Source of the DNA: Methylopila sp. 73B
GTDB lineage: Bacteria; Pseudomonadota; Alphaproteobacteria; Rhizobiales; Methylopilaceae
Assembly (NCBI RefSeq): GCF_000526315.1
Contig: NZ_JAFV01000001.1
Span: 868,001-932,000, forward strand
Direction: 5' to 3'
Length of the DNA: 64,000 nt
This document shows, piece after piece, positions 40 to 15,016 of the stretch. Position numbers and translations under genes: made by a program. Position 1 is the first letter of the stretch. Each line of letters opens with the position of its first letter. Below the pieces are notes generated by a model. That model did no database searches. It worked only from the letters and a program-made list of their open reading frames with translations, and was not told the origin of the DNA.

Positions 40-1071
40 TCACTGCGACGCGCTCGTGAGGTAGGCCTGGATCGGCTTGGTGTCGAACAGGCCCGGCCAG
101 TCCTTGGGCTCGGCCTGGATGCGCTTCTGCTCCAGCAGGAAGGCTCCGATGCCCTGCAGGTGCTTCATCAGGCGGGAGTCCAGCTCCTGGCCCGGCGCGC
201 CCAGGAAGTCGGCGGTCAGGGTCTCCCGGAAGGTCGGGTGCGCGACGCTCTGGCCTTCGACCAGCTTGTCGAACTGTTCGGCGGTCATGCCTACGCGTTT
301 CGCCTCGTAGACGCGGACCGCGGCGGGGTTCGCCTTGTAGTCCTGCTGAGCCTGGTCCCACGCCTTCAGGAAGCGGCGCATGGTCTCCGGTTCGCCGTCC
401 ATGAAGGGCCGCCGTCCGACCCAGACGCCGCCGGTGATCATGCCGAGACTTTTGGTGTTCGCGATCGCCTTCGCGCCCTCGCGCTCCATGGCGCCGACGT
501 TCGGCTCCCACACGAAGGCGGCGTCGATCTGGCCGGCGACGTAGGCCGGCGGCATGTTGGCCGGGGTTAGGTTGACAAGGGTGACGTCCTCGGACTTCAG
601 CCCCGCCTTCGCGAGCGCCCGCAGCGTGTGGTAGTGGCTGGTGGAGCCGATCGCGACGCCGAGGCGCTTGCCCTTCAGGTCCTCCAGCTTCTCGATCCCC
701 GCCTTCGGGTTGACCACCAGCCGCACGTTGGTGGCGTCGATCCGCTCCATGAAAAGGATCGCGATCGGCAGTCCGTTGGCGTAGCCGGTGACGGAGGGAA
801 ACTCGCCCATCCAGGCGAGGTCGATCTCTTCGCCCGCGAGCGCCGGCAGCATCGCAGGACCAGCCGGGAACGGCTTGGTGGAGACGTCGAGCCCTTCCTT
901 CTTGAACAGGCCGGCGCCGAGGGCGTAGCTCAGCAGCACGTTGATCTCGCCGGTCTGGAAGCCGAGACGGATCGGCTTCGCGTCCTGCGCCGCGGCGGGG
1001 GCGGCGAGACCAAGCGCAAGGCCGGCCAGAAGTACGAGACGGCGGCTCAGGCCGAAGGCTGCGCGGATCAT
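40..1071 (-). CDS. ABC transporter substrate-binding protein, taurine/nitrate/sulfonate type
   Basis: A 343-residue periplasmic binding protein of the SsuA/TauA/NrtA (type 2) fold. Residues 1-28 form a typical Sec signal peptide (basic N-terminus, Leu/Ala core, Ala-rich cleavage region ending near PAAAQ). The mature part starts with the family pattern IRLGFQTGEINVLLSYALG and has the usual ligand-lobe signatures (DLKGKRLGV, GSTSHYHTL, AAFVWEPNV). The ATG at 1069-1071 begins the signal peptide, so it is a better start than any further upstream. It lies 35 bases after the M20 deacylase gene and is probably co-transcribed with it. Partner ATPase and permease genes are not in the window and may lie beyond base 1. 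The ligand is unknown; an organic sulfonate, nitrogen compound or pyrimidine precursor would fit the family. Confidence 0.85.
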   Translation of the reverse strand: MIRAAFGLSRRLVLLAGLALGLAAPAAAQDAKPIRLGFQTGEINVLLSYALGAGLFKKEGLDVSTKPFPAGPAMLPALAGEEIDLAWMGEFPSVTGYANGLPIAILFMERIDATNVRLVVNPKAGIEKLEDLKGKRLGVAIGSTSHYHTLRALAKAGLKSEDVTLVNLTPANMPPAYVAGQIDAAFVWEPNVGAMEREGAKAIANTKSLGMITGGVWVGRRPFMDGEPETMRRFLKAWDQAQQDYKANPAAVRVYEAKRVGMTAEQFDKLVEGQSVAHPTFRETLTADFLGAPGQELDSRLMKHLQGIGAFLLEQKRIQAEPKDWPGLFDTKPIQAYLTSASQ

Positions 1072-4766: not shown

Positions 4767-6293
4767 TCAGACGGGGTCTCGTTCGAACAGCAGATGGTGC
4801 ATCATCACCCTCAGCCGGGGTGGGCTGACGGGCTTCACCATCAGGGGCACGCCCGCGGCGCGGACCCGCTCGACGACGCCGGGCTCCGCGTCGGCGGTGA
4901 TGATGCAGGCGGGGATCTCCGCTTCCGACACGGCCCGGACGTGGGCGATCACGTCGAGGCCGGTGCTCATGCGGATGCTGTAGTCGGCGATGATCAGCCG
5001 TGGCCGGAAGCCGCCGGCGACGATCGCCGCGGCCTCCTCCGCTCCCGCCGCGGAGCGCCGGTCGACGCCCCAGCGGTCGAGCAGCTGGCCCATCGCCTCC
5101 CGCAGCGCGTCATCGTCTTCGACGAGCAGGATGGGCGCGCCGACGAACTCTCCGGCGACCGCCTCGTTGACCTCGGTCTCCACGACCTCGCTGTGCCAGA
5201 CGTTGCCGAGCGGCACGAACACCGAGAAGCGCGACCCGGCGCCCGGCGCAGACTTCAGCTGGATCCGATGGCCGAGCAGGTCCGACAGGCGCTTGACGAT
5301 GTTGAGGCCGAGGCCGAGGCCGGTCTTCTCGAGCCGCCGGTCGTCCGCCGCGCGGTAGAACTCGTCGAAGATCCTCTCCTGGTCCTCCGGCGGGACGCCG
5401 CGCCCGGTGTCCACGACGTCGATGCGCAGCCCGTCGCCGCGCCGCCGGCAGCCGACCAGCACGCCGCCGACGTCGGTGAAGCGGAGCGCGTTGGCGACGA
5501 TGTTGCTGAGGATCCGCTCGAGCAGGGCGCGGTCACTGGACACCGCGGCGCGGGCGCCGACGATCCGCAGGCGCAAGCCCTTGTCCGCCGCCTGATGCCG
5601 GAACTGGATCTCCAGACGCTCGAACAGGGTCGACAGCTGGAACGTCGCGATCCGGGGCTTGATCCGGCCGGCGTCCAACTGTCCGATCTGCAGCAGCGCG
5701 CCGAGCAGGTCCTCCATCACGGACGCCGACACGTCCATGCCGTGCAGCAGTTCGCGACGGCGCGCCTCGTCGGTCTCGCGCACGCAATTGAAGATCATGA
5801 TCTTCAGCGCCGCGAGAGGCTGCCTGAGGTCGTGGTTGGCGGCCCGCAGAAAGCGCGACTTCGCCTCGTCGACGGCCTCGGCCTTCTCCTTTGCGGCCAG
5901 CAGCGTCGCCTCCCGGCGCTCCGCGGCGGTTACGTCCGAGAGCATGGTGACGGCGCCGCCGCCGTCGACGGGGGCGATCGACATCCGGACGACGCGCCCG
6001 TCCGCCGATTTGTAGTCGGCTTCGCTTTCGTCTCCGAAGGCCACGGCCTGGTCCGCGATCCAGAGCTCCGGCGGAACTGGCAGCCGCCACTCCCGGGAGG
6101 CCGCGACGGCCGTCAGGAAGCGCGCGTAGGGGAGGCCGACAGGCAGCGCGAAGTCGAAGCTCTGGCGGAACGCGCGGTTTGCGAAGAGCAGGGCGCCCGT
6201 CTCGTCCCAGACCGCGGCCCCGTTCGGCAAAGCGTTGAAACCGGCGAACACGCGACCGGCGTTCGCCTCCGTCGCAGCCTCTCCGTCAGCCAC
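4767..6293 (-). CDS. Soluble hybrid sensor histidine kinase (PAS-HisKA-HATPase-REC)
   Basis: A 508-residue hybrid histidine kinase without membrane segments. Order of domains: PAS-like sensor (about 10-130), HisKA with the H-box AANHDLRQPL and phospho-acceptor His154, HATPase (N-box asparagines 264 and 268, G1 DTGRG at 295-299, G2 GLGLGL at 325-330), and a C-terminal receiver (about 387-505) with acidic pocket VEDDD and phospho-acceptor Asp437 in LIIADYS. Its start overlaps the response regulator gene by 8 bases, indicating translational coupling. Because neither kinase nor its neighbouring binding protein is exported or membrane-bound, the signal is likely intracellular. The attached receiver may act as a phosphate sink or as input to a phosphorelay. 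Confidence 0.9.
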   Translation of the reverse strand: MADGEAATEANAGRVFAGFNALPNGAAVWDETGALLFANRAFRQSFDFALPVGLPYARFLTAVAASREWRLPVPPELWIADQAVAFGDESEADYKSADGRVVRMSIAPVDGGGAVTMLSDVTAAERREATLLAAKEKAEAVDEAKSRFLRAANHDLRQPLAALKIMIFNCVRETDEARRRELLHGMDVSASVMEDLLGALLQIGQLDAGRIKPRIATFQLSTLFERLEIQFRHQAADKGLRLRIVGARAAVSSDRALLERILSNIVANALRFTDVGGVLVGCRRRGDGLRIDVVDTGRGVPPEDQERIFDEFYRAADDRRLEKTGLGLGLNIVKRLSDLLGHRIQLKSAPGAGSRFSVFVPLGNVWHSEVVETEVNEAVAGEFVGAPILLVEDDDALREAMGQLLDRWGVDRRSAAGAEEAAAIVAGGFRPRLIIADYSIRMSTGLDVIAHVRAVSEAEIPACIITADAEPGVVERVRAAGVPLMVKPVSPPRLRVMMHHLLFERDPV

Positions 6294-7056
6294 GGCCGGG
6301 GTTGGCGCCGCCGAACAGGCTCATGGCGTAGTGCAGGGCCGCGGATCTGTCGGGCAGGTTCAGCTTCTTCATCGCGTTGCGCAGGTGGACGCGCACGGTC
6401 TGCTCCGCGACGCCGCATGCTTCCGCGATCTTCCGCACCGACTTGCCCCGTCCCAGCAGCTCGAGAACCTCGCGTTCGCGGTCGGTGAGAGCCTGCGCGT
6501 CCGACGCCGGCTCGGGCGCCGCGTCGGCCGACGTTCCGGGGGCCGACCGCTCGATGATGCGGCGCGGGAACGACACCTCGCCGGCGAGGACGCGCTCCAG
6601 CGCGCGCTCCACTTCGGGCGCGCCCGCCGACTTCGGGATGTAGCCGATGACGCCGTGTTCGACCGAGCGCATGACGTGCTCGACGTCCTCGTGCACCGAG
6701 ACGACCACGAGCGGGACGGTCGGGAACTCCTTGCGCAGTCGGCGCAGCCCCGCGAAAGCCTCGAACCCCGGCATCACCAGGTCGACGAGCATGAGATCGA
6801 CGTCGGGATGGCGCGCCAGCGTGTCCGCAGCCTCCGCGAAGCTCTCCGCTTCGTAGATCTCGATCGTCTGCTCCAGCCGCTCCATGACCTGTTTGAGCGA
6901 CTGCCGGACCATCCAGTGATCGTCGGCGATCACGACCTTCAGCCGCGCGCCCGCAGGGGCCTCGCGCGAAGCGTCGGAACGCGGCGCGTGGTCGGCGCCG
7001 CCTGCGCGGCCGCAGCGCCTCAGCTTGGGGTCGACGCTTTCGAGGGAGTTCAGCAT
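6286..7056 (-). CDS. NarL/FixJ-type response regulator (LuxR HTH)
   Basis: A 256-residue response regulator. Residues 39-155 form the receiver (VVIADDH, phospho-acceptor Asp92 in MLVDLVMPG, conserved Lys in YIPKSAG), and about 190-250 form a LuxR-type helix-turn-helix (LTDREREVLELLGRGKSVR, then VAEQTVRVHLRNAMKKL). The first 38 residues are a poorly conserved extension, so a later start is possible. It is the first gene of the minus-strand signalling operon, divergent from the amide transporter and dimethylformamidase operon, and it overlaps the kinase gene. From memory, a LuxR-family activator (DmfR) controls dmfA1-dmfA2 in Paracoccus aminophilus; this gene occupies the corresponding place but is a full receiver-containing regulator. 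Candidate binding dyads lie in the intergenic region. Confidence 0.9.
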   Translation of the reverse strand: MLNSLESVDPKLRRCGRAGGADHAPRSDASREAPAGARLKVVIADDHWMVRQSLKQVMERLEQTIEIYEAESFAEAADTLARHPDVDLMLVDLVMPGFEAFAGLRRLRKEFPTVPLVVVSVHEDVEHVMRSVEHGVIGYIPKSAGAPEVERALERVLAGEVSFPRRIIERSAPGTSADAAPEPASDAQALTDREREVLELLGRGKSVRKIAEACGVAEQTVRVHLRNAMKKLNLPDRSAALHYAMSLFGGANPGRG

Positions 7057-7302: not shown

Positions 7303-8589
7303 ATGAAAGACATCACGCGGCGGACACTTGTGAAGGCGACGGCGGCGGGCGGCGCCGCGGCGGCGCTCTCAGCCCCCTTCATCTCGCGGGCCTGGGCGGC
7401 CGAGCCGATCCTGCTCGGCGTTCCGACCTCGCAGACGGCCGCCGCGGGCGTGGCCGACGACCTCGATCACCTCAACGGCACCACGCTCGCGATGGAGGAG
7501 ATCAACGCCGCCGGCGGCATCCTGGGGCGGCCGCTCAAGCTCTACGTCACCGACGTCGACAAGCTTTCTCCCGAGAGCTGCCAGCAGGCGATCGCCGCCT
7601 GCGTCGACGCCAAGGTGCACGCGATCTCGAACGCCTTCGTGTTCGTGCCGATCCCGGCGATGGACGCCTCGGCCAAGTACAAGTGCCCCTATCTCAACGG
7701 CAATACGCAGCGCGCCGCCACCGAGGCGTTCAAGAAGAATCCGGACAAGTACAGCCATGTCTTCCAGACGGACCCGTCGGAAGTCCACTACGGCTACACC
7801 TACCCGATCTGGCTGAAGGCGATGGAGAGCTCCGGCGCCTGGAAGCCGAAGAACCGCAAGGTGCACATCGTCCAGGAGCAGGTCGCCTACTGCCAGACGA
7901 TTTCGCGCGCGGCCCAGGAGGCGCTGAAGAAGAGCGATTTCGAGGTCGCCAAGATCACCGACATCCAGTTCCCGGTGCAGGATTGGGGCCCGGTGATCCA
8001 GGAGCTGAAGGAGGTCGACGCCGGCGCGATCATGATCGACCATTGGGTCGCCGCCGAATACGCCGCCTTCTGCAAACAGTTCCAGGCCGATCCGGTGCCG
8101 GACTCGCTGGTTTATCTTCAGTACGGCCCGTCGCAGCCTGAGTTCCTGACGCTCGCGGGGGAGGCGGCCAACGGCTTCTGCTGGTCGACGGTGCTCGGCG
8201 TCTACGCCGACGAGAAGGGCAACGCCTTCCGCGCCAAGTACAAGAAGCGTTTCCCCGGCATCATGGGCCTCGTCTACACCGGCAACGGCTACGACATCGC
8301 CTACTATCTGAAGGCCGCGTGGGAGGCGACGGGCGATCCCTCCAACTTCAAGGCCGTGTGCGACTGGATTCGCACGCACCCCTACCGCGGGGTCTGCGGC
8401 TACATGGACATGAACAACGAGTACCAGGAGTCCGGGCATTTCCCGGACAACGGTTTCGCGGTCACGGCGACCGAGCTCGAGAAGGGCATGAGCCAGCTCT
8501 ACGTCCAGGTTCAGGACGTCGAGCATAAGATCATTTACCCGTACGAGATCAAGGAATCGGCGCTCAAGCCCGCGCCGTGGTGGAGCTGA
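7303..8589 (+). CDS. Amide/urea-type ABC transporter substrate-binding protein (Tat-exported)
   Basis: A 428-residue type 1 binding protein of the UrtA/FmdD group (urea and short-chain amide transporters). The N-terminus carries a twin-arginine motif (TRRTLVK, residues 5-11), an Ala-rich hydrophobic core and a probable cleavage after SRAWA near residue 30, so export in folded form by Tat is predicted. The mature part has typical strands (EPILLGVPTS, EEINAAGGILGRPLK) and the segment DSLVYLQYG shared with the cytoplasmic protein at 3521-4738. It is the first gene of the plus-strand operon; its stop overlaps the start of the next gene (TGATG). The ligand is inferred to be an amide, possibly dimethylformamide or a related N-substituted amide, because the hydrolase is in the same operon. 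Confidence 0.88.
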   Translation: MKDITRRTLVKATAAGGAAAALSAPFISRAWAAEPILLGVPTSQTAAAGVADDLDHLNGTTLAMEEINAAGGILGRPLKLYVTDVDKLSPESCQQAIAACVDAKVHAISNAFVFVPIPAMDASAKYKCPYLNGNTQRAATEAFKKNPDKYSHVFQTDPSEVHYGYTYPIWLKAMESSGAWKPKNRKVHIVQEQVAYCQTISRAAQEALKKSDFEVAKITDIQFPVQDWGPVIQELKEVDAGAIMIDHWVAAEYAAFCKQFQADPVPDSLVYLQYGPSQPEFLTLAGEAANGFCWSTVLGVYADEKGNAFRAKYKKRFPGIMGLVYTGNGYDIAYYLKAAWEATGDPSNFKAVCDWIRTHPYRGVCGYMDMNNEYQESGHFPDNGFAVTATELEKGMSQLYVQVQDVEHKIIYPYEIKESALKPAPWWS

Positions 8590-9347
8590 TGGCGGCGCCT
8601 GCGGCGCGCGTTTCGGACGCGCCGCTCTTCGCGTGCGAGGACATCACGCTCGATCTTGGCGGCCGCTCGATCCTGCACGGAATCAGCCTGAGCGTCCGTC
8701 CCGGCGAAGTGCTCGGGATCATCGGACCGAACGGCGCGGGCAAAACCAGCCTGTTCGAGGTGCTCTCGGGCCGCATGCGGCCGAAGAGCGGGCGGGTGAC
8801 CTTCAGGGGCGAGGACATCACCCGGCTGCCGCTGCACGCGCGGGCGCGCCTCGGCGTCGGGCGCACCTACCAGACCCCGGTGGTGCCCGACGAATTGACG
8901 GTCGGCCAGACCTTCAAGGCCGCCCGTCAGGCCTACCGCCCCTATCTGACGCGGCTCGACGCGGAGTACGGCGCGGAACTCGTGCATCTGCACGTCGACC
9001 ACGATGACGCGACCGCGCAGCTCGAAACCATGAACCGGCGGAAGCTGCTGCTGGCCTGCCTGCTCATGCGGCGCCCGGCGATCCTGCTGATGGACGAGCC
9101 CGCGGCCGGCCTCATCAACTCCGAGGTCGACGAGATCGACCACCTCATCCGCATGCTCTCGAAGGAGATGAACGTGGCGATCGTCATCGTCGAGCATCGG
9201 ATCGAGCTGCTGGAGACCATCGCCGACCGCGTGATGGTGATGGATGCGGGCTCCGTTATCGCCTCAGGGTCGCTCGCCGACATCCTGACCGACCCCAAGG
9301 TCCACGCCGCCTACTTCGAAGGGCCCGGCGAAGGGGACGCCGCGTGA
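8589..9347 (+). CDS. Amide ABC transporter ATPase 1 (LivG/UrtD-like) with degenerate signature
   Basis: A 252-residue cytoplasmic ABC ATPase. Walker A GPNGAGKT, Q-loop RTYQTPV, Walker B AILLMDEP and the H-loop histidine in VEHRI are intact. The ABC signature, normally LSxGD/Q-QRR before the long helix, is replaced by LETMNRRKLLLACLLM, so the loop that contacts the partner's ATP lacks the usual Ser-Gly residues. I chose the ATG at 8589 overlapping the previous stop (TGATG); a GTG at 8577 is possible but would lie inside the preceding gene. The stop overlaps the next start by 4 bases. It should pair with the ATPase at 9344-10102, giving an asymmetric dimer with one non-standard ATP site. Confidence 0.88.
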   Translation: MAAPAARVSDAPLFACEDITLDLGGRSILHGISLSVRPGEVLGIIGPNGAGKTSLFEVLSGRMRPKSGRVTFRGEDITRLPLHARARLGVGRTYQTPVVPDELTVGQTFKAARQAYRPYLTRLDAEYGAELVHLHVDHDDATAQLETMNRRKLLLACLLMRRPAILLMDEPAAGLINSEVDEIDHLIRMLSKEMNVAIVIVEHRIELLETIADRVMVMDAGSVIASGSLADILTDPKVHAAYFEGPGEGDAA

Positions 9348-10102
9348 GCGCCCCCGCCGCCGTCTCGCCGGCAGCGGCGCCGGAGCGGCGCGAGATCCTG
9401 AAGGTCAAGGGCCTGTCCGCCGGCTACGGCCCGATGCGCGTCATCCACGACCTCGACCTGTCGGTCTACTCCGGCGAGCGGGTCGGCATCGTTGGCCTGA
9501 ACGGCCACGGCAAGTCGACCCTCTTCTACGCGATCGCCGGGCTCACGGGCTGGCAGCGCGGCTCGATCCTGCTGAACGGCGTGGAGGTCGGGCGGACGCG
9601 CAGCCAGGGTCCGGGCCGCTACACCCACCTCGTGGTGCGCCAGGGCCTCGCGCTCATTCCGCAGGGCGACGAGATCTTCCACGGCCTCACCGTCGAGGAG
9701 CACCTCGACTCCGGCGCCTTCACGCCGCGCGCTTGGAAAGAGCGCAAGGAGCGCAAGGAGAAGATCCTCAAGATCTTCCCGCCTCTCGTGAAGCTGTTGA
9801 AGACCCCGGTCGGCCGGCTGTCCGGCGGCGAACGGCGCATGGTCTCGATCGGCCGCGGGCTGATGGCGGACGCCTCGCTGTTCCTCGTCGACGAGCCCTC
9901 GCTCGGCCTCGCGCCCAAGATCGGCAAGGGCGTGATGGAGGCTCTGTTCGACGTCGAGCTCGGCCAGTCCGCGATGATCATCGCCGAGCAGAACGTCGCG
10001 CTGCTCGAAGGCCGCGTCGACCGCGTCATCGGCATGCATGTCGGCAAGCTCAAGGGCGAGGCCTCGGCGTCGCTGTCCTTCCAGACCCGCCGGGAGCTCT
10101 GA
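9344..10102 (+). CDS. Amide ABC transporter ATPase 2 (LivF/UrtE-like)
   Basis: A 252-residue ABC ATPase that energises the importer. Motifs are all present: Walker A GLNGHGKST, Q-loop LIPQGDE, signature LSGGERRM, Walker B LFLVDEPS. The H-loop position reads AEQN, which is usual in LivF/UrtE proteins and not a defect. The GTG start overlaps the preceding stop (GTGA), which is typical translational coupling. The first 18 residues are an Ala/Pro-rich tail before the first strand. Its canonical signature contrasts with the degenerate one of its neighbour. Confidence 0.9.
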   Translation: MSAPAAVSPAAAPERREILKVKGLSAGYGPMRVIHDLDLSVYSGERVGIVGLNGHGKSTLFYAIAGLTGWQRGSILLNGVEVGRTRSQGPGRYTHLVVRQGLALIPQGDEIFHGLTVEEHLDSGAFTPRAWKERKERKEKILKIFPPLVKLLKTPVGRLSGGERRMVSIGRGLMADASLFLVDEPSLGLAPKIGKGVMEALFDVELGQSAMIIAEQNVALLEGRVDRVIGMHVGKLKGEASASLSFQTRREL

Positions 10103-10106
10103 TCCC

Positions 10107-10988
10107 ATGGACGTCGGCTTCATCCTGACCAACGCGATCGTGCTCGCCTGCATCTACGGCACGCTCGCGATCGGGCTCTCCATCACCTGGTCCAGCGTCG
10201 GCCTGATCAACCTCGGCTACGGCTTCATCTTCGCGCTGTCGGGCTACGGCGCCTGGCTCGCCTCGCAGTACGTCTCGACCAACGGCGTGGTGGTGCTCAC
10301 CGCGGGCGTCCTGACCGGCGCGCTCGGCGGGCTGCTGGTCTGCGCGCTGGCCTTCATCCCGATCCACGACAAGCCGAATTTCACCGTCCGCGGCCTGATC
10401 GCGACGCTGGCCATCAGCCTCATCGGCACGCAGGCGCTGCTCTACTTCTTCGGCCCGCGGTCGAAGAACCTGCCGGACATCTTCGGCTTCTGGAAGGTGA
10501 ACGTCGGCGGGATCGTCCTGACCTCCGACAAAATCGGCAACGTCGTCGTCTCCATCGTCGTGGTGACCGCGGTGCTGCTCTGGATGCGATCGAGCCGGCG
10601 GGGGCTCGAGATCCGGGCGATGATGATGAACCCGCACGCCGCCTCGATTGTCGGCATCGGGGTGCGCAAGACCGGCTTCTACGTGATGGCGATCACCGGC
10701 GGGCTCGCGGGCCTCGCGGCGGTGCTGCTGTCCCAGACCTATTACATCTCGCCCTTCGGCGGGCTCGCGCCGATGATCAAGGGCGTCAGCATCGCGCTCT
10801 GCGGCGGGCTCGGCAGCGTGCGCGGCGCGGTGATCGCGGCGATCATCCTCGGCCTCAACGAGGCGCTCACCGCCCGCCTGCTCGGCGGCCAGTACGTCCT
10901 GATCACCCAGTTCATCCTGATCATCCTGATCCTGCTCGTCCGTCCCCGCGGCATCGCGGGCATCCTCGACCGCGCTCGGGAAGCTTGA
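10107..10988 (+). CDS. Amide ABC transporter permease 1 (LivH/UrtB-like)
   Basis: A 293-residue inner-membrane permease of the branched-chain amino acid/urea class, with about eight hydrophobic segments and the family patterns INLGYGFIFALSGYGAW near the N-terminus and GGLGSVRGAVIAAIILG near the C-terminus. The ATG at 10107, 4 bases after the previous stop, starts directly at the first membrane segment; longer upstream extension would overlap the ATPase gene with low-complexity residues. Forms a heterodimer with the next gene product. Confidence 0.9.
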   Translation: MDVGFILTNAIVLACIYGTLAIGLSITWSSVGLINLGYGFIFALSGYGAWLASQYVSTNGVVVLTAGVLTGALGGLLVCALAFIPIHDKPNFTVRGLIATLAISLIGTQALLYFFGPRSKNLPDIFGFWKVNVGGIVLTSDKIGNVVVSIVVVTAVLLWMRSSRRGLEIRAMMMNPHAASIVGIGVRKTGFYVMAITGGLAGLAAVLLSQTYYISPFGGLAPMIKGVSIALCGGLGSVRGAVIAAIILGLNEALTARLLGGQYVLITQFILIILILLVRPRGIAGILDRAREA

Positions 10989-10990
10989 GC

Positions 10991-12631
10991 ATGACCGGCC
11001 ATACCTGGCGCAATCCGCTTTATTTCTGGGGCGTCGAAGGCGCGGAGAAGGAGGTCCCCTCCATCCCGCACAAGAGCCCGCAGGACGTGTGGGACGAGAC
11101 CACCACGTCCAAGGCGACGATGCTGCCGGTCGGGCGGCTGCGCTACTACTACAAGTGGCCGGGCCACGGCGGCCTGACCTGGCCGCGCTTCCGCTACTGG
11201 GGGACGCGCCGGCGGGCGCTGAACATCCGCAGCGTCTACAATCCGAAGACGATGCGTCTCGAGAAGACCATCGTCGACAAGCGGCCGATCTGGTGGGTGC
11301 TCGGCCTGCTCGCCTTCATGCTGGCGCCGCTGGTGATGCCGACGTCGTTCCAGAACACGCTGCTGACGGCGGGCGCGACCTTCTCGATCTACGCCGCGAT
11401 CAACCTCTGCTGGATGCTGATCATCGGCACCGCCGGCATCTACTCGCTGGCGAGCTACGCCGTGGTGGGCGCCGCGGCGTTCGGGACGTCGTGGCTGTCG
11501 ATCAACCTTGGCCTGCCCTGGTGGGCGCTGCCGCTTGTCGGCGCCGGCATCGGCCTGGTGTTCGGCATGATCATCGCCGTGCCCGCGATCCGTCTCGACG
11601 GGTTCTACTACGCGCTGCTGACCATCGGCCTGAACGAGCTCTGCCGGGTCTACACGCTGCAGTCGAAGCAGTTCGGCTCCTCGACCGGCGGGCTCTACGG
11701 CGCCGATACGTACATCCCGCAGGGGTGGGACCAGTACGACCAGTCGCTGCTCGCCTACTACGCCTGCTTCGGCGTGATGCTGGCGGGCCTTGCGCTCTAC
11801 CGCTTCATCGACGGCCGCAGGCTCGGACGCATCCTGAAGATGGCGCCCGAGAAGCGCGAAGCCTTCGCGGAGGCGACCGGCGTCGACTTTCGGCGCGCTC
11901 GCATCTGGGTGTTCGTGATCTCGTCGATCGGGCTCGGCTTCATCGGCGGGTTTTACGCCGCTCATTACCGCGGCGTGTCGTTCTCGATCTTCAGCTTCGA
12001 CACGGTGCTGCTCGGGCTCGCGATGCTGGTCATCGGCGGCATCGGCCGGGCCGAGGGCGCGGTGGTCGGCACCGCAATCGTGATCCTGCTCGACAAGGTG
12101 CTGCTCTCCACCGGCCCGCTTCGGCTGATCCTCATCGGCCTGATCATGCTTGGGGTGGTGCTGTTCCTGAAAGGCGGGCTGTTCGGCATCAAGGCCCAGT
12201 TCCGGGCCTGGCGCGACAAGAAGAAGAGCGAACGCCGGTCCATGCGGGCCGAGAAAGGAGGCGAGATGTTGCCTGAGGAAGCCACCGAGACCAAGGACAA
12301 GGACCTTCTGTACTGGCGCCGCTACGACAAGATGCAGCGCGAGTTCCTGAAGACGGTGATCTCGCCCGAGCTGATCGAGGAGCACCGCAAAAAGCCGCTC
12401 GGCCAGCACAGCGAGCCGCTGGAGCGCCTCCTGCTCTACTTCCGCCGCGCGCCCCAGAACGACAAGTACGCGATCGTGGCTGTTGAGCCGTTCAAGGCCT
12501 ACCGCATCGTCGCCCTCTCGGGGCAGCGCGGCGTCGCGCCGCGCATCGTCGAGGACAAGATCTACACGTCGACGGACGAGGCCTATCACGGCGTCTTCCT
12601 CCGCCGCGTCCAGGATCTCCTCGAGTCCTGA
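10991..12631 (+). CDS. Amide ABC transporter permease 2 (LivM/UrtC-like) fused to dimethylformamidase small-subunit domain
   Basis: A 546-codon continuous frame with three parts. Residues 1-96 are a soluble, aromatic-rich N-terminal extension (RYYYKWPGH, RFRYWGTRR) unusual for LivM. Residues about 97-405 are the LivM-type membrane domain (PAIRLDGFYYALLTIGLNEL, then GGIGRAEGAVVGTA). A basic linker (DKKKSERRSMRAEKGGE) leads to residues 426-546, which resemble the DmfA1 small subunit of N,N-dimethylformamidase (patterns LLYFRRAP, AYRIVALSG, HGVFLRRVQDL). A Shine-Dalgarno and ATG lie in frame at the junction, so both a fusion and a free small subunit may be made. A lost stop through an indel is the alternative: another frame has a TGA at 12274-12276, where a separate permease gene could end. 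Confidence 0.8.
   Translation: MTGHTWRNPLYFWGVEGAEKEVPSIPHKSPQDVWDETTTSKATMLPVGRLRYYYKWPGHGGLTWPRFRYWGTRRRALNIRSVYNPKTMRLEKTIVDKRPIWWVLGLLAFMLAPLVMPTSFQNTLLTAGATFSIYAAINLCWMLIIGTAGIYSLASYAVVGAAAFGTSWLSINLGLPWWALPLVGAGIGLVFGMIIAVPAIRLDGFYYALLTIGLNELCRVYTLQSKQFGSSTGGLYGADTYIPQGWDQYDQSLLAYYACFGVMLAGLALYRFIDGRRLGRILKMAPEKREAFAEATGVDFRRARIWVFVISSIGLGFIGGFYAAHYRGVSFSIFSFDTVLLGLAMLVIGGIGRAEGAVVGTAIVILLDKVLLSTGPLRLILIGLIMLGVVLFLKGGLFGIKAQFRAWRDKKKSERRSMRAEKGGEMLPEEATETKDKDLLYWRRYDKMQREFLKTVISPELIEEHRKKPLGQHSEPLERLLLYFRRAPQNDKYAIVAVEPFKAYRIVALSGQRGVAPRIVEDKIYTSTDEAYHGVFLRRVQDLLES
12254..12261 (+). promoter_or_regulatory. Internal Shine-Dalgarno for the dimethylformamidase small subunit
   Basis: AAAGGAGG is complementary to the 16S rRNA 3' end and sits 4 bases before an in-frame ATG at 12266 inside the permease-fusion gene. 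Its position exactly at the domain junction argues that the small subunit is also translated on its own. The short spacing may lower efficiency. Confidence 0.6.
12266..12631 (+). CDS. dmfA1: N,N-dimethylformamidase small (alpha) subunit, probable internal in-frame start
   Basis: A 121-residue small subunit that could be translated from the internal ATG in the same frame as the permease fusion. Known DmfA1 proteins are about 130 residues and form heterodimers with the large catalytic subunit, which is encoded 63 bases downstream. Visible resemblance: a helical N-terminus (YWRRYDKMQREFLKT), then IEEHRKKPLG, LLLYFRRAPQNDKYAI, AYRIVALSGQRGV and the C-terminal HGVFLRRVQDL. The assignment rests on remembered family features plus genomic position beside dmfA2. 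The last 18 bases including the stop are duplicated immediately downstream. Confidence 0.7.
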   Translation: MLPEEATETKDKDLLYWRRYDKMQREFLKTVISPELIEEHRKKPLGQHSEPLERLLLYFRRAPQNDKYAIVAVEPFKAYRIVALSGQRGVAPRIVEDKIYTSTDEAYHGVFLRRVQDLLES

Positions 12632-12694: not shown

Positions 12695-15016
12695 ATGGCC
12701 CAGGTGAAACTGTTCGGTTACGCCGACAAGATCTCGGTGAAGCCGGGCGAGAGCATCGACATCCACGTCTCGGCCGACGGCGTGGAGACAGCGGACGCCA
12801 AGCTCGTGCGCCTGATCCACGGCGACGAGCATCCCGACGGCCCCGGCTTCATCGAGGAGGAGGTGGCTTGCGAGGCGGACGGCGCCTGGGCCGTGCGCAA
12901 GCAGTACACCCAGGTCGGCTCCTACCTGAAGGTCGACGACCCCACCAACGTGCTGGCGCTCGACGGGCCGATCACGCTGTTCGCCTTCATCTTCCCCGGC
13001 ATACCGGACGCGGGCCTGCGGCAGTGCCTGCTTGCGCGCTGGAACAACGACCGCAACTTCGGCTACTCGCTCGGGATCAACCAGCGCGGCCATCTGGAGT
13101 TCTGGGTGGGGCAGGGGAGCGAGGTCGACTACATCCAGGCGGAGGCCCCGCTGCTGGTGAAGATGTGGTACTTCGTCGCCGCGAGCTACGATCCCAAGAC
13201 CGGCCGGACGGAGATCTATCAGGAAAGCGTCGCCAACCGGTACAACAGCCTGCTCGGCAAGGTCTGCCCGATCGAGTACCGCAGCCACGTCACCGAGACC
13301 TTTCGTTTCCGGCCGAAGCATCTGGCCGAAACGCCGTTCCTGATCGCCGGTTCGCAGGATTTCCACGAGACCCGCGGCGCCTTCGTCTCCGAGACCTACT
13401 GCGGCAAGATCGACCGCCCCGGCGTCTACGGCCGCGCCCTGACCCGCGCCGAACTGGACGAGATCCGCGACGGCAAGCCGCCGAAGCCGGACGGTCTCGT
13501 CGCCTACTGGGACACGACCGCGGGCTACACCGACCAGGGGATCGGCGACGTCGTGATCGACGTCGGCCCGCACAGGCTGAACGCGCTCGGCTTCAACCGT
13601 CCCGTGCGCGCCCAGACCGGCTGGAACTGGAACGGCCGCAACGACTGCTTCCGCCTCGCGCCGCAAGAGTACGGCGGGGTCGAGTTCCACTACGACCAGG
13701 TGGTGGATTCGAACTGGGAGAAGACACGGACGGTCCGGCTGCCCAACGAACTCAAGAGCGGCTGCTACGCGATCCGCCTGCGGGCGGGGCCGGGCAAGGG
13801 CCTCGCGGAAGAGTACGTCGTGTTCTTCGTCCGGCCCAAGACGCCGAAGGGCAAGGTCGCGCTGCTGTTCCCGACCGCGACCTATCTCGCCTACGCCAAC
13901 GAGCATCTGAGCTTCGACGCCCAGATCATCCAGCCGATGACCGGGCAGCCGCCGATCGTCACCGAAATCGACATCGAGATGTACAAGAATTGGGAGTTCG
14001 GCTTCTCGACCTACGACAGCTGGGCCGACGGCAACGGCGTCTGCTACACCTCCTACCGCCGCCCGATCCTGAACATGCGGCCCAAGGCGCGCATGTCGAG
14101 CATGGGCGTCACCTGGGCGTTTCCCGCCGACCTCTCGATCCTCGCCTGGCTGGAGACGAAGGGCTACGACTACGACGTCGTCACCGATGAGGACCTGCAC
14201 CGCGAGGGCCTGGCGGCGATCGAGCCCTACGCCTGCGTGCTGACCGGCTCGCACCCCGAATACACCTCCGAGCCGATGCTGGACGCGATGGAGGACTACG
14301 TCGCCGGCGGCGGGCGCTTCATCTACATGGGCGGCAACGGCTTCTACTGGAACGTGGCGTTCCGGGAGGAGGAGCCCTGGGTGATGGAGGTGCGCAAGCT
14401 CGACTCCGGCATGCGCGCCTGGCAGGCGCGGCCGGGCGAGCACTATCTCGCCACCACCGGGCAGAAGAGCGGGCTCTGGAAGAACCTCGGCCGTCCGCCG
14501 CAGAAGACCTTCGGCGTCGGGTTCATCGGCGAGGGCTTCGAGACCAGCCGGCCGTTCCGCCGGATGCCCGACAGCTACCACCGCACGGTCGACTGGATGT
14601 TCGAGGGCATCGAGGGCGAGATCATCGGCGACTTCGGCCTCGCCTACGGCGGCGCCGCGGGCCTCGAACTCGACCGCTACGACCTCACGCTCGGCACGCC
14701 GCCGCACGCCAAGATCATCGCCTCCTCGGGCGGCCACAGCGACAACTACATGCTGTCGATCGAGGAGATCCTCTACCCGTACCCCGGCCTCGCCGGCTCG
14801 CAGGACTACCGGCTGCGCGCCGACCTCGTGTACTTCCCGACGCCCAACAACGGCGCCGTGTTCAGCACCGGTTCGATCGCCTTCTGCCAGGCGCTGCCGA
14901 TCAACGGCTTCGACAACAACATCTCGAAGCTGCTGGGCAATCTGGTCGACGCCTTCACTAAGCCCGGACTGCTGCCGGGATCGTTCTGGGTGAACGAGGA
15001 GAAGCAGTGGAAGTGA
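12695..15016 (+). CDS. dmfA2: N,N-dimethylformamidase large (beta) subunit
   Basis: A 773-residue cytoplasmic amidohydrolase; family members are about 760 residues and convert dimethylformamide to dimethylamine and formate. The N-terminal half contains a lectin-like beta-sandwich (about 85-270); the C-terminal half is the catalytic domain. From memory, the characterised Paracoccus enzyme binds a single iron through two tyrosines and a glutamate (Tyr399, Tyr440, Glu521) with a nearby His519. Matching residues are present at almost the same numbers: Tyr400 in YLAYANEHL, Tyr440 in FSTYDSWAD, and His520/Glu522 in GSHPEYTS. The ATG at 12695 has GGAG seven bases upstream. Last gene of the operon. 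Enzymes for dimethylamine and formate use are not in the window. A related N-substituted amide could be the true substrate. Confidence 0.88.
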   Translation: MAQVKLFGYADKISVKPGESIDIHVSADGVETADAKLVRLIHGDEHPDGPGFIEEEVACEADGAWAVRKQYTQVGSYLKVDDPTNVLALDGPITLFAFIFPGIPDAGLRQCLLARWNNDRNFGYSLGINQRGHLEFWVGQGSEVDYIQAEAPLLVKMWYFVAASYDPKTGRTEIYQESVANRYNSLLGKVCPIEYRSHVTETFRFRPKHLAETPFLIAGSQDFHETRGAFVSETYCGKIDRPGVYGRALTRAELDEIRDGKPPKPDGLVAYWDTTAGYTDQGIGDVVIDVGPHRLNALGFNRPVRAQTGWNWNGRNDCFRLAPQEYGGVEFHYDQVVDSNWEKTRTVRLPNELKSGCYAIRLRAGPGKGLAEEYVVFFVRPKTPKGKVALLFPTATYLAYANEHLSFDAQIIQPMTGQPPIVTEIDIEMYKNWEFGFSTYDSWADGNGVCYTSYRRPILNMRPKARMSSMGVTWAFPADLSILAWLETKGYDYDVVTDEDLHREGLAAIEPYACVLTGSHPEYTSEPMLDAMEDYVAGGGRFIYMGGNGFYWNVAFREEEPWVMEVRKLDSGMRAWQARPGEHYLATTGQKSGLWKNLGRPPQKTFGVGFIGEGFETSRPFRRMPDSYHRTVDWMFEGIEGEIIGDFGLAYGGAAGLELDRYDLTLGTPPHAKIIASSGGHSDNYMLSIEEILYPYPGLAGSQDYRLRADLVYFPTPNNGAVFSTGSIAFCQALPINGFDNNISKLLGNLVDAFTKPGLLPGSFWVNEEKQWK

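Follow-up and report, generated by a model that had tools for sequence, protein, structure and literature searches.

A gene for the permease of what appears to be an amide importer continues in frame, in Methylopila sp. 73B and in many other bacteria, into the small subunit of an amide hydrolase; an arrangement that suggests an enzyme mounted on its own uptake gate. We describe it from a stretch of 64,000 nucleotides of the Methylopila genome (hereafter 'the window'; Table 1), and consider it probable that this one gene yields two proteins, such that tethered and free small subunits together mount the catalytic subunits on the importer. If true, an ABC importer would covalently bear part of its own catabolic enzyme, in a fusion kept across the deep divergence of the alpha-, beta- and gammaproteobacteria, marine SAR11 included.

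Table 1. The fusion gene, its parts and its neighbours; positions are those of the window, residues those of the fusion protein
Feature	Residues	Position	Strand	Basis or remark
Hybrid histidine kinase, partner of the LuxR-type regulator		4767–6293	-	orthologue pair with regulator upstream
Divergent LuxR-type response regulator, likely regulator of the operon		6286–7056	-	orthologue pair with kinase upstream
Periplasmic substrate-binding protein, LivK type, twin-arginine signal		7303–8589	+	profile matches
ATPase, LivG/UrtD type		8577–9347	+	profile matches
ATPase, LivF/UrtE type		9344–10102	+	profile matches
Second permease, LivH/UrtB type, partner of the fused permease		10107–10988	+	profile matches
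livM~dmfA1 fusion gene	546 aa, 61.5 kDa	10991–12631	+	sequence reading (ATG 10991–10993, first stop TGA 12629–12631); frame, homology, predicted fold
K/R-rich N-terminal extension	1–97	10991–11281	+	precedes first membrane helix
LivM-type permease	about 98–392		+	homology, fold
K/R-rich linker	393–425	12167–12265	+	ends E-K-G-G-E just before the junction
Shine-Dalgarno-like AAAGGAGG within the frame		12254–12261	+	little RNA structure around the junction
DMFase small-subunit domain	426–546		+	structure match
Putative internal ATG and free small subunit	121 aa, 14.3 kDa	12266–12631	+	comparative
DMFase-type large (catalytic) subunit		12695–15016	+	PF20254 DMFA2_C, E 1.3e-92; 6lvb_A, E 3.2e-181

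Following the polypeptide from its N-terminus, we see that the lysine/arginine-rich extension is hardly reached by structure or fold matches of the fusion; it is still recognisable in fusions of about 50% identity. The permease domain is confirmed by a match of residues 129–389 to Pfam PF02653 (E 2.5e-22), its scores lying far under the NCBIfam cut-offs for both LivM (46.7 against 366 bits) and UrtC (40 against 296.2 bits). The C-terminal part, for which there are no Pfam or NCBIfam matches, aligns with the small subunit of N,N-dimethylformamidase (DMFase; PDB: 6lvb_B, E 7.1e-13) and has, by prediction, the DmfA1 fold expected of a small subunit in this family. The proposal made in our first-pass annotation, that a permease runs without a stop into a domain resembling DmfA1, is thus borne out over a frame of 546 codons. 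An AlphaFold model built from 64 alignment rows (pLDDT 80.6) supersedes an earlier one from 15 rows (pLDDT 67.5); the linker is its weak section, at pLDDT 56–70. The linker is nevertheless kept down to about 50% identity, a figure partly ascertained in the named-genome scan described below, though not in the sets of relatives and of genomes from the order; its closing motif reads EKGGE in 71, ERGGE in 8 and VKGGE in 2 of 81 rows, again partly ascertained by the scan pattern. From alignment with the BtuC-like fold, together with the basic character of the linker, we infer that the C-terminus of the fusion lies on the cytoplasmic side of the membrane.

The fused permease completes an importer operon of the LIV-I/Urt type (7303–12631), comprising a binding protein, two ATPases and two PF02653 permeases. 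Across 81 loci, truncated contigs included, the second permease is found near the fusion in 74, the ATPases in 72 and the binding protein in 70, with orthologues of the kinase/regulator pair lying upstream in 20. Directly downstream, as the first reading had it, is the large subunit, matched to both PF20254 and 6lvb_A; it keeps the equivalents of the iron ligands Tyr399, Tyr440 and Glu521 (a 2-Tyr-1-Glu site) as well as the essential His519, and counts among its other sequence relatives N-acetyl-(R)-beta-phenylalanine acylase (8huy). A second amide-type operon lies elsewhere in the same genome (L101; G000:C1:4206000–4225000); its small subunit, near 4.2136 Mb, is unfused, and it has a large subunit and an ABC importer of its own. 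Also present in the genome are a further small subunit that shares 47% identity with the fused domain, and a second pair of kinase and LuxR-type regulator.

A search of related genomes for the same fusion was rewarded: the frame continues through the junction in 6 of 61 relatives (among them 5 of the 13 genomes of the genus), 15 of 397 genomes of the order (one of these cut by a contig end), 2 of 385 of the class and 3 of 398 of the phylum; these sets overlap with each other and with a set of named genomes, and all four include the window's own genome. Because the named genomes were scanned with the patterns EKGGEx[LM]PE or [WF]R[DN][KR]KK[SG]ExR, these letters are to some degree bound to appear conserved; the pattern has no bearing on residue 426, on codon choice or on the open frame. 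Of 121 matches, 80 loci were kept for analysis. Permease and small subunit share one frame in all 80, with no permease stop ahead of the small-subunit domain in any, and the large subunit lies downstream in 77, the contigs of the remaining 3 stopping at most 136 bases past the fusion stop. Record titles range over Methylopila, Hansschlegelia, Methylocella, Methylobacterium, Bradyrhizobium, Rhodopseudomonas, Rhodobacteraceae, beta- and gammaproteobacterial bins and SAR11 (Pelagibacterales), some of them doubtful, such as a bin labelled Klebsiella (L122) and an Oceanobacillus (L176). Two further candidates were rejected: an open frame of 483 amino acids (G682, L069), in which the part upstream is unlike a permease on reading the frame, and a weak match from the phylum set (G1079, L186; 28% over residues 2–70), where the frames show neither permease nor small subunit.

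In the record for the Aminobacter plasmid pMDW2 (L184) the fusion is annotated as one CDS, named simply as a branched-chain amino acid permease; an amide uptake route may, therefore, hide under generic annotation. The junction query matches 38 plasmid records in all, 32 of them typed as conjugative; weaker matches to free small subunits are counted in, and 24 of the records, many near-identical, come from Agrobacterium. Plasmids of Rhizobium are also among those matched. Given these matches, the fusion system may be mobile.

The loci fall into three layouts. Class A (51 rows, the window included; lowest identity 52%) has the fusion followed by the large subunit, with no other small subunit seen at the locus; class B (16 rows) has fusion, free small subunit and large subunit; class C (11 rows) has fusion, large subunit, free small subunit and a second large subunit. 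Three of the 81 rows (L109, L150, L157) are excluded from these counts, their contigs ending just past the fusion; four of the 51 class A rows (L122, L149, L160, L181) end too early to show a free copy of the C type, and two (L104, L132) are counted as A despite a more distant small-subunit homologue roughly 7–8 kb off. In a tree calculated without the junction residues, class B forms one group (support 92) and class C, with one cut-off row, another (98), giving two changes of layout. A tree of the small subunits, which has few columns and moderate support, gathers the free copies of class B into a single group (87), next to the fused B domains and within the fused domains as a whole, and those of class C into another (90), also among fused domains; the free copies thus look like duplicates of the fused domain. 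The unfused homologues L002 and L069 fall among the fused domains too, however, a placement that permits more than one order of fusion and loss. In Methylopila capsulata the fusion does not differ from that of the window over the 430 columns retained for the tree.

Iron ligands and histidine are intact in 69 of 76 first large subunits, and the 7 exceptions are all of class C, where the second large subunit is intact. Each of the 11 class C loci (L130, L137, L139, L141, L143–L146, L153, L154, L156) carries two large subunits, one of them missing an iron ligand: in 7 the first has exchanged Tyr399 for Phe or Leu and His519 for Arg, and in 4 the second has exchanged Tyr440 for Cys. Judging by these residues, such pairs possibly combine an active large subunit with a dead, docking one.

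A subunit that has lost an iron ligand could equally serve for docking or for sensing, and the tethered domain is strongly conserved; both would fit a C-terminal small subunit that responds to product or enzyme load by gating the importer through trans-inhibition, with no hand-over of substrate. C-terminal regulatory domains do occur in some ABC importers, for example MetN and ModC, and the fused domain is similarly placed. The domain is, however, recognisably that of an enzyme subunit and adjoins a catalytic subunit with its iron ligands; class A loci show no other small subunit, and no regulatory ligand site emerged in the domain from homology or fold comparisons. On balance, we regard a gating role as unlikely.

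The dual-product reading that we prefer turns on the junction itself, where the first-pass annotation had claimed a Shine-Dalgarno sequence and an ATG (12254–12268), with the suggestion that tethered and free small subunit are both made. Both elements are present, the AAAGGAGG motif being followed by an in-frame ATG at 12266–12268. A start codon (ATG, GTG or TTG) is found at codon 426 or 427 in 51/51 loci of class A, 3/16 of class B and 7/11 of class C; the last figure, with the start retained despite a free copy, counts against this reading. ATG itself stands at codon 426 in 50 of the 51 class A rows, including all 47 that are long enough to show a C-type copy, and in none of the 16 rows of class B. 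Other fusions have Ala, Val, Ile, Leu or Pro at residue 426, most class B loci an Ala codon, so that the protein seems not to require a methionine there. Fusions from outside the scan behave in like manner: L068, L098 and L099 keep the start and have no free copy in the stretch at hand, and L095 (layout B, with a free copy) is without a start.

Codon choice and RNA structure point the same way. The junction lysine codon, which precedes the glycine pair, is AAA in 40 of the 43 class A rows that have lysine, against a mean fraction of 0.26 (maximum 0.61) for the other 12 lysine columns; the counts are 3/16 in class B and 0/11 in class C, although one other lysine column of class B reaches 0.94, indicating that single columns can be AAA-rich for other reasons. 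Measured against synonymous redraws, which drew on the same gene's codon usage, RNA openness at the class A junction ranks first of 146 windows scored (mean z 1.72, against -0.21 (sd 0.40) overall) and is positive in 22 of 22 representatives (<85% identity); at the junctions of classes B and C the ranks are 146 and 142 of 146, the latter from 4 representatives. Anti-Shine-Dalgarno pairing, by the same comparison, is mixed (stronger in 16 of 51 class A loci at p<0.05, weaker in 12 of 51 at p>0.9), and plain Shine-Dalgarno strength was accordingly set aside as proof of internal initiation. When loss of the start was set against presence of a free copy in an independent-pairs test, the median p was 1; the two branches on which free copies arose are too few for such a test.

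This mixed pairing strength leaves some room for the tethered form alone being made, the junction signature reflecting something else, for instance a translational pause that aids domain folding; Shine-Dalgarno-like sites within genes may serve other roles. A pause needs no start codon, yet one is kept throughout class A and in 10 of the 27 loci that have a free copy, and the openness signal reverses in class B; we consider such an explanation quite improbable. Start codon, codon choice and openness are kept where there is no second small-subunit gene and mostly lost where there is one, which, at the level of comparative sequence, suggests tethered and free small subunits from one gene. Saying this, genomes of Methylopila have a free homologue elsewhere (47–48% identical), and the window's own genome might therefore do without the internal start. 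The fusions taken together offer a natural experiment on one-gene-two-proteins, with an internal start in most lineages and a duplicate gene in two.

Where a free copy is present, the tethered domain is the better conserved of the two: mean pairwise identity is 0.75 for the fused domain against 0.45 for the free copy in class B, and 0.79 against 0.66 in class C, with the fused domain higher in 120 of 120 and 55 of 55 pairs, respectively (pairs that are not independent). The tethered form thus seems itself to be selected. The strong start and openness signature of class A could otherwise be taken for incidental read-through, in which the permease has lost its stop and the cell relies on the free subunit made from the internal start, tolerating the tethered form; in classes B and C, however, a free gene is present and the internal start often gone, yet the fused domain persists, and the linker is retained and the permease stop absent as set out above, making this a very improbable account. 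That the junction is an artefact of assembly or sequencing, for which we found nothing in favour, has next to no likelihood, given an identical frame in many separate assemblies and on plasmids and the single CDS of the Aminobacter record. The first-pass annotation had named an indel restoring a permease stop, or the lack of relatives with a continuous frame, as what would overturn it; neither holds, the frame being continuous in the relatives counted above. The TGA at 12274–12276 is present but out of frame.

Clues to the substrate come from neighbouring genes. At one SAR11 locus (L163) genes for a glutamine amidotransferase, a GXGXG protein, an FMN glutamate-synthase-like protein and a type III glutamine synthetase come after the fusion and large subunit; we take them to be the methylamine set mgsABC/gmaS. 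The four corresponding clusters have members in 8, 9, 10 and 9 of the 81 loci, SAR11 accounting for more than half. The neighbours in SAR11 and in a few further lineages look, from their sequences, like genes of methylamine assimilation. A free small/large pair in Rhodococcus adjoins an AmiS/UreI gene. Together these point to a short, perhaps N-methylated, amide, not necessarily dimethylformamide; a pointer that carries little weight for the remaining lineages, that of the window among them. Between fusion and large subunit, Methylobacillus has a porin-like gene (L128:9528–10679; porin_ExtI model, below cut-off), as though passage through the outer membrane belonged to the same route; L185 has a similar gap.

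How might one gene with two products work? Translation from 10991 would give a LivM permease bearing the small subunit at its cytoplasmic C-terminus, by way of the basic linker, and translation from 12266 the free small subunit. A LivHM importer contains one LivM; it would accordingly present one tethered small subunit, with free copies filling the remaining sites of an alpha2beta2 or (alpha2beta2)2 enzyme. Production of the free form, for which the grounds are comparative, and likewise large-subunit docking and stoichiometry are our extrapolation from sequence. In the accessible parts of a study of the Paracoccus enzyme (PMC7686228), the assembly is described as alpha2beta2 or (alpha2beta2)2, the large subunit alone is inactive and the small subunit is required for activity; the small subunit inserts its N-terminal helix as a wedge between the large ones, and the active site is reached by way of a cavity between the two kinds of subunit, the small one standing at its entrance. 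By hypothesis, substrate could be handed over from importer to enzyme. More tentatively still, we can picture an import-and-hydrolyse machine, whose built-in subunit is completed by free copies from the same gene, in which substrate would pass from permease exit to active-site entrance without mixing into the cytoplasm, and whose two products were later split by duplication in two lineages; a possibility towards which we lean slightly sceptical. The fusion makes transporter–enzyme channelling of this kind directly testable. Of the first-pass interpretation as a whole, then, both halves are identified, the fusion is real and a dual small subunit is suggested by comparison; of what it also proposed, docking is inferred and hand-over a hypothesis.

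Within the open-access library searched, we found no description of a DMFase or amidase subunit fused to an ABC permease. Streamlined marine bacteria, SAR11 among them, are reported to have a dimethylformamidase and an inner-membrane translocator in one gene cluster (PMC10308929), the accessible part of that paper making no mention of a fusion. In the Paracoccus DMFase (DmfA1/DmfA2; PDB: 6lvb) the small subunit is a separate protein, according to the portions available of PMC7686228 and PMC4543880, whereas here it forms the tail of an ABC permease and is perhaps also free. For the production of two forms from one gene there are parallels, as far as the accessible text of the respective papers goes: in RCK potassium channels such as MthK an internal methionine yields a soluble copy of the membrane-tethered cytoplasmic domain, the two co-assembling (PMC4565861, PMC2573919), although these are ion channels with a ligand sensor and homology to the fusion is not expected; and in type I-D CRISPR systems the small subunit Cas11d comes from an alternative start within the large-subunit gene, cas10d (PMC10212523), albeit for an immune complex without transport. 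With the LivFGHMK and UrtABCDE importers our system shares its five components in one operon, and PF02653 for both permeases; it differs from them in a fused permease far below the LivM and UrtC cut-offs, with an enzyme-subunit tail. Transporter–enzyme fusions that covalently couple uptake to metabolism do exist, as in SulP with carbonic anhydrase, and LplT-Aas. Those are secondary carriers joined to whole enzymes or domains, whereas our system has a single subunit of a heteromeric enzyme on an ABC importer, with both tethered and free forms of that subunit apparently made.
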